DNA of 50,164 bases, taken from a bacterium (GTDB taxonomy: Bacteria > Zixibacteria > MSB-5A5 > WJJR01). The DNA is taken from positions 1 to 50,164 of the forward strand of contig JAKAKI010000095.1 of the NCBI GenBank assembly GCA_021813505.1, read 5' to 3'. The notes beneath the pieces are model-generated. The model ran no database searches. It saw only the letters and a program-made list of their open reading frames with translations, and had not been told where the DNA came from. Positions 4,673-12,839 of this stretch are shown one piece after another. The position numbers were made by a program, and so were the translations under genes. Each line of letters begins with the position of its first letter. Positions within the stretch are counted from its first letter, which is position 1.

Positions 4673-6031
4673 CTACTCCAGCCCGTACTTCCGCAGTTTC
4701 GTGTACAACACTCGCCGGGTAATCCGCAGACGTTTGGCGGCGTTGCTCTTGTTGCCGTTGCAGGCTTGCAGGGCGGCCACGATCATCTGCTTCTCGACAT
4801 CCTCGATGCCTTGATCTGTCGCAGATGTCGGAGACTGCGGGGCGGACTCGGGTGCCGCTGCGACGATGGCGCGAGTGGGGGAGAGGCCTGGGAGGAAGCC
4901 CAGATGTTCGGGCTTGATCACGTCACCGTCGGCGAGAATCGTGGCGCGTTCGATGATATTGCGCAGCTCACGAATATTCCCCGGCCAATGGTAGGCGCGC
5001 AGCGATTCGGCGACATCCTTCGTGATCTTTGCCGATGGGTACCGCAGCTTTTCGAGAAAATGTGCCGCCAAAAGGTCGATATCGGCGGGACGTTCACGCA
5101 GTGGCGGAACCGTAATCGGAAAGACATTCAGGCGGAAAAACAAATCCTCGCGGAAGCGGCCGGAATTGACCTCGGTTTCCAGATTCTTATTGGTCGCGGC
5201 GATCACGCGCACATTGATGGCGATTGTCTCGCCGCCGCCAACACGGACAATCTCGCGCTGCTCCAGGGCACGCAGAAGTTTCGCCTGAAATCCGCCGGAG
5301 ATTTCGCCGATTTCGTCGAGAAACAGCGTCCCGCCTTCGGCCAGCTCGAATCGTCCGGCTCGTTGTTTGATTGCGCCGGTGAAGGCGCCCTTTTCGTGGC
5401 CAAACAGCTCGCTTTCCAGAAGTGTCTCGGTCAGGGCGGCGCAGTTGGTGGCGACAAACGGCCGCGACCCGCGCGGTGAGGCGCGATGAATCGCCTGCGC
5501 CACCAGCTCCTTGCCCGTTCCCGATTCGCCGGCGACCAAAACCGTGGCATCGGTCTTCGCCACGCGCTCGATCAGGGAACGCAGTTTCTCCACTGGTGGC
5601 GACACGCCAATAAACTCGTCATCGGTGAGCGCCTTGAGATCCTCATCGAGCCGTTCGGCACGCGCTGCGATCCGCCGATTTTTGAGCCAGCGTTCGACCC
5701 ACAGCGTCATCTCATCCAGATCGAGCGGCTTCTGCAGAAAATCAATCGCCCCCGCCTTCATCGCGGCTACTGCCGCGGCGGTTGAGCCGTGCGCGGTGAG
5801 TACGACCACGTCGGTGCCCTCGAGTGCGGTCACCGCATTCACGATCTGCAATCCATCGACTGGCTCCATTCGCAAGTCGGTGATCACCAGGTCGAACGGC
5901 GTGCTCTTGAGCCTCTCCAGCGCCCTCGCGCCGTCGCTTTCGTACGACGCACGATGCCCCAGGTCGTTCAACGTCTCCGACAGGAGAAACCCAATCCGCT
6001 CCTCGTCATCGACTATCAGAATCTTGGCCAT
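4673..6031 (-). CDS. NtrC-family sigma-54-dependent response regulator
   Basis: A 452-residue activator with all three standard parts. The receiver domain (1-120) has the acidic pair DDE at 8-10, the phosphoacceptor D52 in VITDLRM, and K101 in FLQKPLD. The AAA+ domain (about 140-375) has Walker A GESGTGKE (168-175), the sigma-54 contact loop GAFTGA (215-220), Walker B GGTLFLDE and [15 protein letters not shown] Fis-type helix-turn-helix ([18 protein letters not shown]) closes the protein. The sensor kinase gene lies 508 bp upstream on the same strand, with repeats between them. The intact GAFTGA loop predicts activation of sigma-54 promoters; the promoter-like site at 8222-8237, beyond the kinase gene, is a natural candidate target. 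Confidence 0.95.
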
Positions 6032-6083: not shown

Positions 6084-6206
6084 GTCATGCTAGCGACGAA
6101 GCATCTGCAGTCCGTCCTATTGGCGGGAGGCCGTCAACAGCAGATCCTTCGTCGCTAGGTTTGTGGCCGAAGTGAGTTTGCCGCAGGCTCCGCTCCTCAG
6201 GATGAC
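6084..6206. repeat. GTCATGCTGAGGAGC-family repeat, copy A
   Basis: Shares almost all its sequence with copy B at 6286-6417, including the ACGAAGCATCTGCAGTCC block and the right end GCTCCTCAGGATGAC. Relative to copy B it lacks about 11 bases after GTCATGCT, so its left arm is degenerate. A nested inverted pair, GCGACGAAGCATCTGC and GCAGATCCTTCGTCGC, remains. Both copies continue into a shared flank, ATCGTGAGTTCA. Lies between the response regulator and sensor kinase genes. Confidence 0.75.
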
Positions 6207-6285
6207 ATCGTGAGTTCACTTCGCTCCAGATGTTAACACCTCTACCTATCTCACCACCAGCTCCAGACTCCGAGAGCTCGCCGCT

Positions 6286-6417
6286 GTCATGCTGAGGAGC
6301 GAAGCGACGAAGCATCTGCAGTCCGTCCTATTGGCGGGAGGCCGTCAACAGCAGATCCTTCGTCGCTCGGTTTGTGGCCTCGGTGAGTGTGCCGCAAGGC
6401 CCGCTCCTCAGGATGAC
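6286..6417. repeat. GTCATGCTGAGGAGC-family repeat, copy B
   Basis: Full-length copy with terminal inverted arms GTCATGCTGAGGAGCG and CGCTCCTCAGGATGAC (one mismatch) and the nested GACGAAG/CTTCGTC stem. It lies about 200 bp from copy A in direct orientation. No open reading frame of interest. Confidence 0.75.
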
Positions 6418-6451
6418 ATCGTGAGTTCATTTCGCTGTTGCAGAAGCGCCT

Positions 6452-6530
6452 GGGAGGGCGATCCGCCGCGGCGGACTGCCGAGCCTTCTTCCCGCGCGGA
6501 AACATGGCTCGGCGGGAGCCTCGCCCTCCC
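6452..6530. repeat. GGGAGGGCGA inverted-repeat element, copy 1
   Basis: Ends in GGGAGGGCGA (6452-6461) and TCGCCCTCCC (6521-6530), with GCCGAGCC and GGCTCGGC inside. It is the most diverged of four copies in the window (others near 7951, 21447 and 36293). It sits immediately downstream of the sensor kinase stop codon. Confidence 0.65.
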
Positions 6531-6539
6531 GTCCAATGC

Positions 6540-7874
6540 TTATGTGTCATGCGTCGACTCCTCCTCTCCCGCCAGCGGCCACTCCACCACAAAGACTGCT
6601 CCGCCGCCGGCATTCTCCTCACACGACACCCGCCCCGAATCCTGCTCCACCATCATCTTCACCGCATACAACCCCAGCCCGCTCCCCTTTGCTTTCGTCG
6701 TGAAGAACGGCTCGAAGACGCGTTTGCGATCCTTTCGAGGAATCCCCGACCCGTGATCGGCGACGGTCAGCCGCCCATGCTTGTTTCCGGACGGTCCCCA
6801 TTTCACTTCGACAGTTGCTCCATCGGGAGATGCATCAAACGCGTTGTTCACCAGATTGATAAGTACCTGCTTCGGTGTATCGGGATCGGCCAGAATGGGG
6901 CCGGTCGGCTCGACCGTCAGATGCCAACGCCCGCGCGTGCGCTCTTCACTTCCGAATGACTTCTCCATCCACTCTTTGAGTTTGTCTTCGATGGCGAGCG
7001 CCGTGGGGTGAGAGGTCACCGGCGATCCCAGCCGCAGATATCCACCCAGAATGCGATTGAGCCGGTCGACTTCGTCAGGAATGAAATGCAGCAGTTCCGC
7101 TCTCTTCCCGGTGTCCTCAACCCGTTCGAGCCGTTGCGCTGTCGCCTTGATGATCCCCAGCGGATTCTTGATCTCATGCGCGATTGTTGCCGCCAGCCGT
7201 CCCAGTCCGATCAGCTTCTCCGAATGCATAAGCTGTTCTTCCCACGCCAGGGTCTTGCGCGTGTACCAGGCGAACAATCCCACAAGGAGAAGCGTGAGAA
7301 TCGCCGACGATCCATGAACCCACCACGCCAGTCGCCGCAGGTCGGCGAGCGCGCCAAAATAGCCGGCGTCTGCTTCGATTCGCACAATCGCGATGGTTCG
7401 TCCGCCCGCAGTGTCCAAAATCGGCGCCGCCGCGCTGCGGTAATACGAATCGCCCCAGCGGTAGGTCGGCGACGTCCACGACAACCCTGACATCAGCGCC
7501 CATTGTCCATCACGGTCCAAAAGCGAGGCCACCAGAATCGCCAGCGAATCCGGCTTGTCAGCAAATGGATCCTGCCAAAGCGTATCGAGGATCGAGACTG
7601 AGACCAGCCGGTTGGCTGATGCATACGAGCGCGTCAGGTCGCGGAGCCGCAGAAACATGTCGGGCCGGAACCTCTCACCGACCGTGCCGGAGATCACCTC
7701 ACTGGGGATACTTGCCGCCAATCCCTCAGCCAACCCGGCCATCTGATCGCCGACCTGGTCATCGAGCGACTTGCTGAGTCCGGCAAATTCCACCCGGAAC
7801 GCCACGTTGACCATCACCAGCAACAAAGTCGCCGCTGCACTAATCACCGCCAGCAGGAGAAGCTTCCGTCGCAT
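6540..7874 (-). CDS. Membrane sensor histidine kinase (NtrB-like partner)
   Basis: 444 residues. A first membrane segment (about 4-27) and a second (about 186-204, GSSAILTLLLVGLFAWY) frame a periplasmic sensor domain of about 160 residues. The cytoplasmic part has the phosphoacceptor H233 in IAHEIKNPLG, the N box LINLVNNAFDA, the G1 box VADHGSGIP, the F box FEPFFTTK and the G2 box GSGLGLYAVK. Every catalytic box is present. No HAMP domain is evident between the second membrane segment and the H box. This architecture usually pairs with sigma-54 activators, and the adjacent same-strand response regulator gene is the expected partner. The signal sensed is unknown. Confidence 0.93.
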   Translation of the reverse strand: MRRKLLLLAVISAAATLLLVMVNVAFRVEFAGLSKSLDDQVGDQMAGLAEGLAASIPSEVISGTVGERFRPDMFLRLRDLTRSYASANRLVSVSILDTLWQDPFADKPDSLAILVASLLDRDGQWALMSGLSWTSPTYRWGDSYYRSAAAPILDTAGGRTIAIVRIEADAGYFGALADLRRLAWWVHGSSAILTLLLVGLFAWYTRKTLAWEEQLMHSEKLIGLGRLAATIAHEIKNPLGIIKATAQRLERVEDTGKRAELLHFIPDEVDRLNRILGGYLRLGSPVTSHPTALAIEDKLKEWMEKSFGSEERTRGRWHLTVEPTGPILADPDTPKQVLINLVNNAFDASPDGATVEVKWGPSGNKHGRLTVADHGSGIPRKDRKRVFEPFFTTKAKGSGLGLYAVKMMVEQDSGRVSCEENAGGGAVFVVEWPLAGEEESTHDT

Positions 7875-7950
7875 TAGTTAGCCATCACAGTTTGAGTGTT
7901 TCTCATTCGCGATGCCGTCTCGCGTCCCCGATTTGAGCAGTTTGCGAGAG

Positions 7951-8000
7951 GGGAGGGCGAGGCTCCCGCCGAGCCTCTTTACCGCGCGGTAACGGGCTCT
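7951..8000. repeat. GGGAGGGCGA repeat, left arm only (copy 2)
   Basis: The 25-bp arm beginning GGGAGGGCGAGGCTCC and ending GCCGAGCC is intact (7951-7975) and is followed by an AT/GC core, but the opposite arm has been lost. It lies in the divergent region between the kinase gene and the lipoprotein gene. Confidence 0.55.
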
Positions 8001-8094
8001 CCAACTCCATCGCTCCTCAGTCCACATCAGAGCACCTTCCGAGGGCCATTTGAATCGCAATCAGGTTCCTCACCTGTCCTTCAAGAAACAAACG

Positions 8095-8110
8095 TGTACC
8101 GTTTGGTACA
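8095..8110. promoter_or_regulatory. Candidate upstream activator site (perfect inverted repeat)
   Basis: TGTACC and GGTACA flank GTTT, a perfect 6-4-6 inverted repeat. It lies about 110-125 bp upstream of the sigma-54 promoter-like site, the usual distance for enhancer sites of NtrC-type activators. The decamer ACAAACGTGT overlapping its left side (8088-8097) occurs again at 8181-8190, 93 bp on. Assignment to the neighbouring response regulator is inferred. Confidence 0.45.
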
Positions 8111-8221
8111 ATCGGCAATTGTTCACGACGCATGAACCGAGATGCGTTTAACGCCACTCCCCAGTCATAACAGATTTAGCACAAACGTGTTAGGGCAAAT
8201 CACCAAGCTCAATTCAGCTTC

Positions 8222-8237
8222 TGGCAGGTCAATTGCC
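8222..8237 (+). promoter_or_regulatory. Sigma-54 promoter-like site
   Basis: TGGCAG, five bases, then TTGCC. The spacing exactly matches the -24/-12 consensus TGGCACR-N4-TTGC; the only core difference is G for C at the sixth base. Transcription would begin near 8248, and the lipoprotein start codon is at 8316. The two-component system with a sigma-54 activator lies on the other side of this intergenic region. Confidence 0.6.
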
Positions 8238-8315
8238 AAATAACCTGTCGAAGTTCTGTGGCTTTCGAGAAACGAGATGGCAAAACGATTCGAGAATCAA
8301 CGAGAGGAGAGATCG

Positions 8316-9479
8316 ATGCGAAGAACCACAACAGCACTGCTGGCCATCACCCTGGGCGTCTTGATGGTGCTTCTGGCGGGATGCTCGAAAGACTCACCGT
8401 CAAACCCGGGCACGATTGACCAGCTCAATCTCACATCGCAGTTCGGCGGGTACTCAACCTCGGATGAGCCTGCCGCGTTTGGCGATCCGGAGATCGCCGC
8501 AATGATGGAGCAGGATCCCGAGTGTGACGATCCGGCCATCTCCGCCGGAGCGGCGGATTCACTTCGCCGGTTGCACGGCGCCACGGTCTACGCCATGGCG
8601 ATCCGCTGGGGAATGCTGCTGGGCGATTCGACGGTGACCGTACCGACCGACTGGTCGGGCTCGCTGTCAATTACGCACGGCGCCATCCACATCGTGCGCA
8701 CACTTCAGTTCGAAGAGCATCAAGATCACATCGTGCGGCCACGCACCAGCCGCTCCGAGCTTGCCTGGGTGTCGCAGACTGCGCCGAGTTTCGACGGCAT
8801 CCTTGTGACCATCATCGTGCCACAGGCACCGCCGGACTCGGATTGGTCGAACAATCAGGTGAGTTTCCAGACAACGCCGTACTCGCGGATCTTCAATCTG
8901 CCGGAACTGAATCATCTCAATGAGATCGTTGACGTCGGCACCGATGGCAACCAGGTCGCCTTCAACGCCACCAATGTGACCGCCGATTCGTGCGGCAGCG
9001 GCCAGTTGGAAGGGAAGTGGGTGCTCAATCCGTCACACAAAAACGGACACTTCCTCGGCAAGTGGATGAACGAAGACGGTCTCATGCTGGGCTTCATTCG
9101 CGGCCACTTCGGCGCCCGTCCGGACTCCAGCAAGATGTTCTTCGGTAAATTCATCGGACTCGAAGGCCACTTCCGCGGCTTGATCCGTGGCAACTGGGCG
9201 TTCGATCTGGGCGATTCGACGCGAGGCACATTCGACGGCATCTTCGCGGGACGCGGCGGCCAGACGTTGGGCGAACTGCACGGCCAGTGGGGATCGCTCC
9301 CGCCCGATTCCACAGCGGCAGTGGGTCGTGAACACGGGAACAATGGCAACATGCATGGACGCGGCCATGATCGCGATCCGAAAGAAGACATGAATTTCGG
9401 AACCAACGGCTGGATCCCCGGCTTCTTCAGCGGCCAATGGCAAAAGACGTGTGGTACCGATTCAACCGGCGGCGGTTGA
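8316..9479 (+). CDS. Lipoprotein with Gly-Trp/Phe tandem repeats
   Basis: 387 residues. The start at 8316 has the ribosome binding site GAGAGGAGAG and opens a lipoprotein signal peptide ending in VLLAGCSKDS, lipid-modified at the Cys. The middle is a beta-rich globular region. From about residue 225 to 330 there are imperfect repeats built on G-x-F/W with GHF, GKW, GKF and GNW turns, such as GHFLGKWMNEDG and GHFRGLIRGNW. The tail is rich in His, Gly and Asn. I do not recognise a named family. The repeats suggest an extended beta structure at the cell surface or in the periplasm. Expression from the sigma-54 site, controlled by the divergent two-component system, is plausible. Confidence 0.75.
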   Translation: MRRTTTALLAITLGVLMVLLAGCSKDSPSNPGTIDQLNLTSQFGGYSTSDEPAAFGDPEIAAMMEQDPECDDPAISAGAADSLRRLHGATVYAMAIRWGMLLGDSTVTVPTDWSGSLSITHGAIHIVRTLQFEEHQDHIVRPRTSRSELAWVSQTAPSFDGILVTIIVPQAPPDSDWSNNQVSFQTTPYSRIFNLPELNHLNEIVDVGTDGNQVAFNATNVTADSCGSGQLEGKWVLNPSHKNGHFLGKWMNEDGLMLGFIRGHFGARPDSSKMFFGKFIGLEGHFRGLIRGNWAFDLGDSTRGTFDGIFAGRGGQTLGELHGQWGSLPPDSTAAVGREHGNNGNMHGRGHDRDPKEDMNFGTNGWIPGFFSGQWQKTCGTDSTGGG

Positions 9480-9508
9480 TACCAAGGCAGCGCGACATCA
9501 CACCAACC

Positions 9509-9541
9509 AAAGCGCCCCGGCCGATGTTGCCAGGGCGCTTT
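9509..9541 (+). terminator. Candidate terminator hairpin
   Basis: AAAGCGCCC (9509-9517) pairs with GGGCGCTTT (9533-9541) about 30 bases after the lipoprotein stop codon. The following tract (TGATATTTGA) is only weakly T-rich. Confidence 0.55.
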
Positions 9542-9580
9542 GATATTTGAAGCCGACTAACTGAGTAGTGCAGGATCGAG

Positions 9581-10069
9581 TGTGGCGCGGGCGCCCTCGC
9601 CCGCGGTCGCGGCGGAGCGGCGAATTCACTTCGGACATCCAGAAGTCAAAAAGTGCATGCTTCGCACGCACGCGACCGAGGGCGGCCGCGCCACATCTGT
9701 GGCGAACTGGTGGCCCACCAGGAGTCCAGTCCGCGAAGCGGACAGGACGGATGGTGGGGTTCTTCACGGGAGGGCTTGTTCGCGTCCGCGGACCTGCCGC
9801 CTCCCACCATCCGCATCTTCGCCTGCGGCGAAGCCGCTCCTGGTGGGCCACCGGCTCTGCGGTAGGTCAAGCCCAGCGAGATAAGAGTTTTCTCCTGCCT
9901 CCCTCCGGGATAGAGCTCACGGGAGGGCTTGTTCGCGTCCGCGGACCTGCCGTCTCCCACCATCCGCGTCTTCGCCTGTAGCGAAGCCGCTCCTGGTGGG
10001 CCACCGGCTCAACGACCAGTCAATGCCAGCGAGAGATGAGTTTTCTCCCCTCTCCCTCGGGGAGAGGGG
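9581..10069. repeat. Repeat cluster with a 153-bp tandem duplication
   Basis: A gene-free stretch built from repeats. A unit with roughly inverted ends TGTGGCGCGGG and CCGCGCCACA occupies 9581-9695. An inverted segment containing TGGCCCACCAGGAG (around 9713-9760) then faces two tandem copies of a 153-bp unit (9764-9916 and 9917-10069). Each of these begins TCACGGGAGGGCTTGTTCGC and contains CTCCTGGTGGGCCACCGGCT. Frames here are artefacts of the repeats. Confidence 0.7.
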
Positions 10070-10116: not shown

Positions 10117-12549
10117 CTACTTCAATAGAATCAGCTTTTTCGATTCAGTACGTCCCGATGCGCTCAGCCGGTGGAAGTAGATGCCCGAAGCGGCCGCCTC
10201 ACCGTGGCTGTTCGTCCCATCCCACAAGACTTGATAGACACCTGCCGGCTGGGACTTCTCCACCAGCGTGGTCACCTGCGGCCGAGGATATCGAAAATCT
10301 CAAGCCGCACACGGCCGCTCGACGGAATCGAGTACTGGAACACGGTCGATGAGTTGAACGGATTGGGGTAGTTCTGATTCAGTGCGAATGAAATCGGAAG
10401 TCCGGCGCTACCGGATGTCCCTGCCTCCACGAATGCATGATTGCCAACGAGCAGCATGTACTGAGCGCCGCTTTCGACCGGGGTCCTTGGGAGTTCCACC
10501 GCCGGATTCTTCCTCAAATCCCATCTGCGGCCAGAGACACTATCGACCAGAGCAACTTCCGAATTGTCAGGCAGCGTCAGAACTGTTCCAATCTCAAGAG
10601 TTGCTGGAGCCTGCGTATTGCCACGGACAAGAAGATCATAGCGCCAGCCGGTTTGGCCGGGCGCGCGGTAATCTGCCGCAAGCAATCTCCCGGTGGCAGC
10701 GCTGTCCCGGCAGACCGTTGCCAAAGAGACATACCGGTCAAAGGGAGGTGGTTCGCTGAGGTCACAATCGTCAGCACCATCCGTAGCCGCAGGCCGCACA
10801 CCGATTGTATTGGTCTGATCCTGTGCGCCTGCTGATGACAGGCTCAACTGCAACGACCAATTGTCCGTCGTTGCCATCAGTTTGGATGAAGCCGATTGCC
10901 CGATACTCAGCGCTTCGGAATAGGGGAGAAGCAGATGTCTGGCGGCGAGGTCGTTGTTTCGGACCCAGTAGCCCGAATAGGGTTTCAGCGTGGAGACCGT
11001 GTCGTATCCGCTTCCGGTGTACCGCCACGCCGCGGTTTCGATCCCGGCATCGGCGATGCGGGAACTCCAGTTGATGTCAAACGCAAACGGAGTCGCAATC
11101 TGATTCTACCCCGGTTCAAGCGACAACACCCCATATCGGGTCGCGTTGACGATGGTGTCAGGGAGGGCAGACAATCCACTCGCCCTCAGTCGCCGCCCGC
11201 CGCGGGCGATCAGCCAGTACCCTTTCCCCCGGGCGATATCTCCGACGCCGGGATACTCGTCGTATGCTCCGGTTCCCGAATTCCAGCGCCCGAGCCGCCA
11301 GAGAGCGTGATCGACCGCGCCAAGATCATCGGCAAACACATTGGCCGGGGAGCTGGGTGAAACATCGAAAGGAAACCCGACCATCTGGTACACGCACTCG
11401 GGAAGCGTCCGTGCCGGCTGGTTGTTCAACTCGGACCTGACGATGAAGGGATGGGCCGATGGGCTGAATTCGGGCAGTGTCGCCGATACCTCTCCAACAA
11501 TTCCGCGAAACGCGAACTCGGCGCCTCGGTCACCCATGACTGCGGCCGGTATCGATCCGGTGTAGCCGCCGCTGAACTGAGTCATCCTGGAGCTATCGAA
11601 TTGTCTCCGTCCCCCGGGGCGATAGTAAAGCCACAGCGTATCAAGGTCCGACGCCGTCTGCACAGATACAGTGTACGCTGTTCCGGCCGGGGCGGAAGTT
11701 ATGCTGTCCTTGCTGTACCGCACTCTGCCGAAGTCGGCTGCGAAGTTCGATTGTGCCACTGACTGAAGTCGCTTCAGTTCTTCAATCGATGCCACCCGTC
11801 TGGATTCACTGGGCGCATGGCCGCTGGGCGCTGGTGAGACAAACTCAAGAACGTCCTGGTCGGTGGCGTAATCGATCGCCGGCTCGATGAAAAACGCGTT
11901 GCCATCGGCAAAACCGAACGCATCCCGCCGATTCACGGTCAGGAAGTACATTACCGGAAGCGAGTTGTTGACAATCTCCACTTGCAGCGCCGGATCCGGT
12001 GTCGTGCTGTAAGCCGTATCAAAGATCCAAAGCCATTCCCTGGGGACCATCAACGACCACATTGCTCCCCTGCGCGTAATCCGGTGGCCACCACCGACCG
12101 TTGACCAATCCGGAGGGGACGTTGTTTTCGAGAAATCCCACGGCGAGCCGGCGATAGGGAGTGGAACTCACATCCCAGGCCGAGAGCGGTACGCTCTGCG
12201 TGAAGTCCTGAAAATCGTATCCTTGGCCCGCGGTGTTCTTGATGTACGGCGCGAAACCAGGCCGGGCGGGGGGATCGGCAAACCGCCGTCCGTAGCGATA
12301 CGCGAACGAAACATTCGAATCACTCGGATTAAAGTTCCCTTCAGCATCGGTCGGCGCCAACAAGAGCAGTACACGCTTCAACTGTCGAGGAGTCGTGCTC
12401 GAGGAGATCACGCTGTTCCAGCCACCTGCCCACCCGATGGCGCCGCCGAATCCCTCGAAGCCGAAGTTCGCACCCTCGGAGGATCCGATTCCTCGCCGGG
12501 TGGCGGATCTAGAAGCGTGTCGCCTTGCGGGGGCATACTCACAACTCAA
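10117..12549 (-). pseudogene. Decayed secreted protein with type IX-like sorting domain
   Basis: One large secreted-protein gene broken by at least three lesions. From the 5' side: a segment down to about 12040 (reading NFGFEGFGGAIGW through VVVDGPQGMA) continues only in another frame from WLWIFDTAYSTT, so a frameshift lies near 12020-12060. That frame runs to an amber codon at 11106-11108, which replaces the Trp expected in LEPG(W)[10 protein letters not shown]; coding sense continues in the same frame beyond it. Near 10275-10284 one base is missing after DILGR, and the remainder ([19 protein letters not shown] through KKLILLK) is in a third frame ending at 10117. The C-terminus, with [14 protein letters not shown], is a FlgD-like/type IX-type sorting domain. 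The true 5' end is unclear and may lie upstream of 12549 after another shift near 12480. Confidence 0.8.
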
Positions 12550-12839
12550 GTCCGGTAATTACCACGATTGCCTCTGGCTTAGCCTTCCGGTCGTGCACCG
12601 GCCAGCCTAAGATGTACTGAATTACTGTCGCCGCGAGAATAATGGCCGATTCCACGAACGGCAACCTGTTTCTTGCCCGTTGAAGGCATCCCAACAATCA
12701 TCGTTATCGTCAGTTCCTGCCGTTCTCCGCAGAATCGCAGCACACAAGCCAATCCGACATCCCGTATTAGGACAACTGAGCTGCCGGCGGGCGACACTGC
12801 AGGATTGTCGACAGTCTGCCGCAGCCCAAGAGAGGCCGT
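12550..12839. other. Intergenic, possible 5' remnant of the pseudogene
   Basis: About 290 bases with no gene I can support. On the minus strand one frame has a hydrophobic stretch (VESAIILAATVIQYILG) that could be a degraded signal peptide belonging to the adjacent pseudogene, but its frame does not join cleanly. Confidence 0.3.

Follow-up and report, generated by a model that had tools for sequence, protein, structure and literature searches.

A candidate small sigma-54 regulon linking a two-component system to a lipoprotein gene and a second operon in the phylum Zixiibacteriota

Results

The whole stretch of DNA analyzed here, 50,164 nucleotides long, probably from an uncultured member of the phylum Zixiibacteriota, and referred to below as the window, contains a sensor kinase gene and a response regulator gene that lie divergent from a lipoprotein gene. 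The region between the kinase and lipoprotein genes holds the elements that make up a candidate sigma-54 promoter. The features are as follows.

4673-6031, minus strand: NtrC-type response regulator gene, encoding a receiver domain, a Sigma54_activat domain with GAFTGA, and a Fis-type helix-turn-helix
6540-7874, minus strand: sensor histidine kinase gene, encoding HisKA and HATPase_c domains
8088-8097 and 8181-8190, the second copy on the plus strand: decamer ACAAACGTGT, the copies exactly 93 bp apart
8095-8110: palindrome TGTACC-GTTT-GGTACA, a perfect 6-4-6 inverted repeat and proposed operator (enhancer site) of the NtrC-type regulator
8222-8237, plus strand: -24/-12 sigma-54 promoter element TGGCAGGTCAATTGCC, with GG at 8223-8224 and GC at 8235-8236 in canonical spacing
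8316-9479, plus strand: lipoprotein gene, the proposed target of the promoter, encoding 387 amino acids with the lipobox LAGC and C-terminal GxFxGxW-type repeats

Two features favor ATG 8316 over 8277 as the lipoprotein start, the signal peptide and a purine-rich AGGAG stretch immediately before it; transcription would be expected to start near 8248. The protein matched no Pfam or NCBIfam family. Neither a fold search of the PDB with its structure model (pLDDT 81.7; E ≤ 0.001) nor a profile search against PDB sequences produced a match, so no fold is assigned to it. In the kinase, hydrophobic stretches near residues 5-28 and 180-200 lie on either side of a presumed periplasmic part. The GAFTGA motif is present in the window's regulator and in most of its orthologs, and the genome has an rpoN gene (PF04552 match, E = 7.4e-59, at C15:8443-8919). 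The kinase-regulator pair is divergent from the lipoprotein gene in five families (f1, f2, f5, f6, and f12).

The surroundings of these genes are rich in repeats. The gap between the kinase and regulator genes, which nearly abut in several relatives, contains two 134-nt copies (6092-6225 and 6303-6436, 93% alike) of a dispersed repeat with more diverged copies, about 69 to 79% identical, in the same genome. The kinase gene is flanked by 45-nt inverted repeat arms (6489-6533 and 7948-7992, 87% complementary), and 3' of the lipoprotein gene, at 9764-10066, are two 150-nt direct repeat copies that are 87% alike. Beyond these, at 10150-12550 on the minus strand, the open reading frames 10272-10877, 11106-12062, and 12019-12549 appear to be parts of one long gene for a secreted protein with a sorting-like C-terminal domain (NPFNSST...FDILGRR), broken up by frameshifts or sequencing errors.

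A reading made from the sequence alone had pointed to a -24/-12 site at exact spacing, a perfect inverted repeat upstream of it, and a repeated decamer, and had proposed that the kinase-regulator pair controls the lipoprotein. The promoter element and the palindrome are both as described, the palindrome lying 112 to 127 bp upstream of the -24 element. A single -24/-12 match is without significance alone: the pattern TGGCA-N6-TTGC is expected by chance 0.44 times per window and was matched in 39 of 100 shuffled sequences. In the 3.9-Mb genome the exact palindrome is found at two places, only one of them in the window; we attribute the other copy (C83:40039), which sits inside a response-regulator reading frame, to chance. 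The significance of promoter and palindrome comes from their conservation and not from the single match. In the window's genome (G000) and its sister G001, TGGCAGGTCAATTGCC and the palindrome are identical while adjacent bases vary. The decamer fared differently. Both copies are present, and among the lipoprotein promoters of the first set of genomes the repeat is found only in these same two genomes; because of this confinement we do not count it as part of the conserved system, and as an element of the switch it was rejected for lack of conservation outside the genus.

Of 58 related genomes, 27 have a relative of the lipoprotein, as do 95 of 132 genomes of the phylum Zixiibacteriota. The palindrome, a dyad, is conserved in front of these orthologous genes: at two or fewer mismatches it was present in 23 of the 27 first-set lipoprotein promoters and in 50 of 58 promoters, 18 of them exact, in a held-out test on genomes unused before. 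None of 60 reversed sequences in the held-out control matched at this threshold, and neither did two paralogous copies in the held-out test. We also checked the orthologous intergenic regions for loss of the -24/-12 element, the outcome that had been named in advance as refuting the proposal; a -24/-12-like element was present in nearly all of them, about 90 to 145 nt downstream of the palindrome, and in the 23 first-set promoters with the dyad it began 91 to 146 nt from the dyad start. Phasing of the distance from palindrome to -24 element was strongest near 10.3 to 10.7 bp within each promoter class, with p-values that ignore the relatedness of the genomes.

The four first-set exceptions differ in kind. 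G021 has just 191 nt of upstream sequence, and in G003 an extra reading frame separates a one-mismatch dyad from the lipoprotein gene. That frame (L054 5060-6244, plus strand, 394 amino acids) is itself lipoprotein-like, with several LTxxQ-like stretches; by eye it resembles Spy, CpxP, or ZraP, and it has no Pfam or NCBIfam match. G006 and G037 have neither the dyad nor an ortholog of the regulator. That G006 nevertheless retains a -24/-12-like element counts against regulation by dyad and regulator, as do three genomes of one genus (G098 to G100; L159, L164, and L160) that keep the lipoprotein gene with no recognizable dyad. The same holds for the -12 element of the orthologs, which is often TTGA or TTGT, not TTGC (held-out L139-L196 together with L001-L030), possibly reflecting a lineage-specific preference of sigma-54 in this phylum.

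A scan that presupposed no motif counted every dyad of 6-bp arms with a spacer of 0 to 10 in two sets, 23 promoters of the lipoprotein and 21 of the second unit described below. It ranked TGTACC-N4-GGTACA first in both (14/23 and 12/21), whereas dinucleotide shuffles never gave more than 3. The runners-up were mostly shifted or variant forms of the same dyad. A weaker second site was found within 75 nt of the main site in 38 of 51 held-out promoters, mostly 20 to 32 bp away, against 1.2 expected. At the lipoprotein promoter of the window itself there is a single strong site with no good partner, which counts against the model.

The second unit is an operon encoding an exported all-helical repeat protein and a predicted outer-membrane barrel. 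Behind the regulator gene in families f5, f6, f7, f8, f12, and f17, and in genomes G004 and G005 of f1, come the dyad or a variant form, a -24/-12-like element, and then the helical-protein gene, with the predicted barrel gene next wherever this was examined; in G003 the helical-protein gene comes directly after the regulator gene. In the window's genome the operon is unlinked, on contig C9, and is preceded by a two-mismatch site, a weaker site 30 bp away, and GGGCACGGGATTTGAT 120 nt further down. In f8 and f17 the lipoprotein gene is the one relocated, with its dyad retained. The second-unit sites of f1 and f2 are degenerate, at two to three mismatches, and count against the model. The constancy of the sites despite changing linkage is, on comparative grounds, the strongest argument for what would be a true regulon. 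The helical protein was modeled as all helix (pTM 0.31), and its profile matches in the PDB are for the most part helical proteins that are designed or of low complexity.

The second unit also bears on which regulator acts at the dyad. Among the 58 genomes, 24 have both the regulator ortholog and the helical-protein gene and 34 have neither, with no exception. Two genomes were scored by inspection: G027 as regulator positive, from the C-terminal end of the protein seen immediately before the operon where the contig begins or ends, and G016 as negative, as the recognition helix of its closest regulator differs. The recognition-helix signature I[TS]RR[VMRK]LY is common to the regulator orthologs and is missing in twelve paralogs and in the G016 protein.

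To look beyond the phylum, we scanned 84,980 species genomes by DNA only, with no protein information, for the dyad followed after 84 to 114 nt by TGGCA-N6-TTG. This gave 21 loci. Two are lipoprotein promoters, and five lie before genes of the helical family (profile E values of 1e-16 to 1e-96), including Calditrichota and KSB1 records. Another three, in three other genomes, lie before genes for small exported WXXGXW-repeat proteins (PF12779).

L127 4618-5091, minus strand: WXXGXW-repeat gene behind a dyad and -24/-12 element
L130 2589-2894, minus strand: WXXGXW-repeat gene behind a dyad and -24/-12 element
L132 5313-5627, plus strand: WXXGXW-repeat gene behind a dyad and -24/-12 element

The PF12779 loci suggest that the TGTACC-N4-GGTACA operator may be used more widely. 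The remaining loci, with Alteromonas-type genomes and TetR-flanked genes among them, appear to be chance matches or other uses of the dyad. Three Alteromonas genomes (L118, L134, and L136) share the arrangement dyad-84 nt-TGGCAGC...TTGATC at the same spacing, with no obvious gene start nearby.

Discussion

Among the closest known systems is ZraSR-ZraP (HydHG) of Escherichia coli and Salmonella, in which an NtrC-type pair, a divergent envelope-protein gene, and a sigma-54 promoter form a very small regulon (PMC7657598, PMC4987338). The window shares the pair with its NtrC-type regulator, a divergent gene for a predicted envelope protein, and a candidate sigma-54 promoter, and of the NCBIfam models the kinase scores best against ZraS. 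The scores, however, fall well below the model cut-offs (156 bits against 479 for ZraS and 396 against 760 for ZraR). The zra locus has sigma-54 promoters in both directions (PMC4987338), whereas here we saw none towards the kinase in the window and no convincing one in eight divergent loci. The target is a lipoprotein with no Pfam or NCBIfam family rather than a ZraP-type chaperone, and the system has a second, two-gene target operon and the operator TGTACC-N4-GGTACA. Because model cut-offs, target family, and promoter layout all differ in this way, we regard the proposed regulon itself as new: it would work like ZraSR-ZraP and is not a member of it.

NtrBC and AtoSC offer partial parallels. 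Like NtrC, the regulator is associated with a dyad upstream of a -24/-12 promoter, and its TGTACC/GGTACA half-sites differ by one base each from the NtrC site TGCACC-N5-GGTGCA (PMC4987338). The spacer is 4 here rather than 5, the kinase has a presumed periplasmic sensor part, the proposed targets are predicted envelope proteins and not nitrogen genes, and the regulator scores 412.7 bits against the NtrC model cut-off of 558.6. AtoC, with the same domain architecture in its AtoSC pair, is the regulator's best-scoring NCBIfam model at 431 bits, but the equivalog cut-off is 714 and no acetoacetate metabolism genes lie at the promoters studied. None of the papers searched joins Zixibacteria, sigma-54, and two-component systems.

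In enhancer-binding proteins, phosphorylation assembles a ring that contacts the sigma-54 holoenzyme by looping, and NtrC-type activators act from upstream dyad enhancer sites that are commonly paired. We propose that the inner-membrane sensor kinase would phosphorylate the NtrC-type response regulator, dimers of which would occupy TGTACC-N4-GGTACA sites, often as a pair separated by about two to four helical turns. The pattern of second sites fits a hexamer seeded by two such dimers. Phosphorylation would then assemble the AAA+ ring, which would reach RNA polymerase-sigma54 at the -24/-12 element, roughly 90 to 145 bp downstream, by DNA looping and drive promoter opening with ATP. The units activated would be the divergent lipoprotein gene (8316-9479) and the helical-protein/barrel operon on C9, and the response would most likely remodel or protect the cell envelope. 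This envelope role is predicted from where the targets should reside, as judged by their signal peptides and the predicted barrel.

Several NtrC-type regulators are encoded per Zixiibacteriota genome and identical dyads elsewhere flank TetR genes (L119 and L128), so the palindrome could in principle be the operator of a different regulator, whether another enhancer-binding protein or a repressor, with the adjacent pair controlling something else. We consider this unlikely, given the perfect co-occurrence of the regulator with the second target, the joint loss of regulator, helical-protein gene, and dyad in G006 and G037, the placement of the dyad right behind the regulator gene in most families, and a recognition helix specific to orthologs of the window's regulator.

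Expression of the lipoprotein from an ordinary sigma-70-type promoter, next to a fortuitous -24/-12 match, is very improbable. The chance expectation for a single match given above speaks in its favor, but no sigma-70-like site was found in 7000-10000, most orthologous promoters have the -24/-12 element too, within a restricted range of distances from the dyad, and element and palindrome are unchanged between G000 and G001 where neighboring bases differ. We give still less credence to the palindrome being a transcription terminator or other RNA hairpin rather than a protein-binding site, even though it appears as a minus-strand entry in a terminator scan and lies directly after the regulator gene in many families. 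In the window both divergent genes point away from it, leaving no gene end at that position; it is met again before lipoprotein genes that are unlinked and before the C9 operon, also unlinked; and its arms hold one sequence (G2 and C5 conserved at 99%, T3 at 91%, and A4 at 94%) instead of covarying, as those of a hairpin would.

We return to regulation of the lipoprotein by the adjacent pair. Conservation, the divergent arrangement, the recognition helix, and co-occurrence all support this part of the original proposal, which appears too narrow in that the unlinked two-gene operon is fronted by the same kind of site. At a probability of roughly 85%, judged from comparative sequence evidence, the pair would switch on both the lipoprotein and the second operon through TGTACC-N4-GGTACA and -24/-12 elements, as a small sigma-54 regulon found across the phylum. 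More speculatively, and in our estimate with the odds somewhat against it, this could be an ancient envelope-response module of Zixiibacteriota, Calditrichota, and KSB1, in which the regulator acting at this operator controls a lipoprotein/helical-repeat/barrel set, not described before, that works as one envelope machine.

An uncultured phylum would gain a regulon defined by its operator, its regulator, and its target genes, and one that is testable in a laboratory host. The motif finds further members from DNA alone. Three families that lack curated annotation, the lipoprotein, the helical-repeat protein, and the predicted barrel, are tied into one presumed functional unit.
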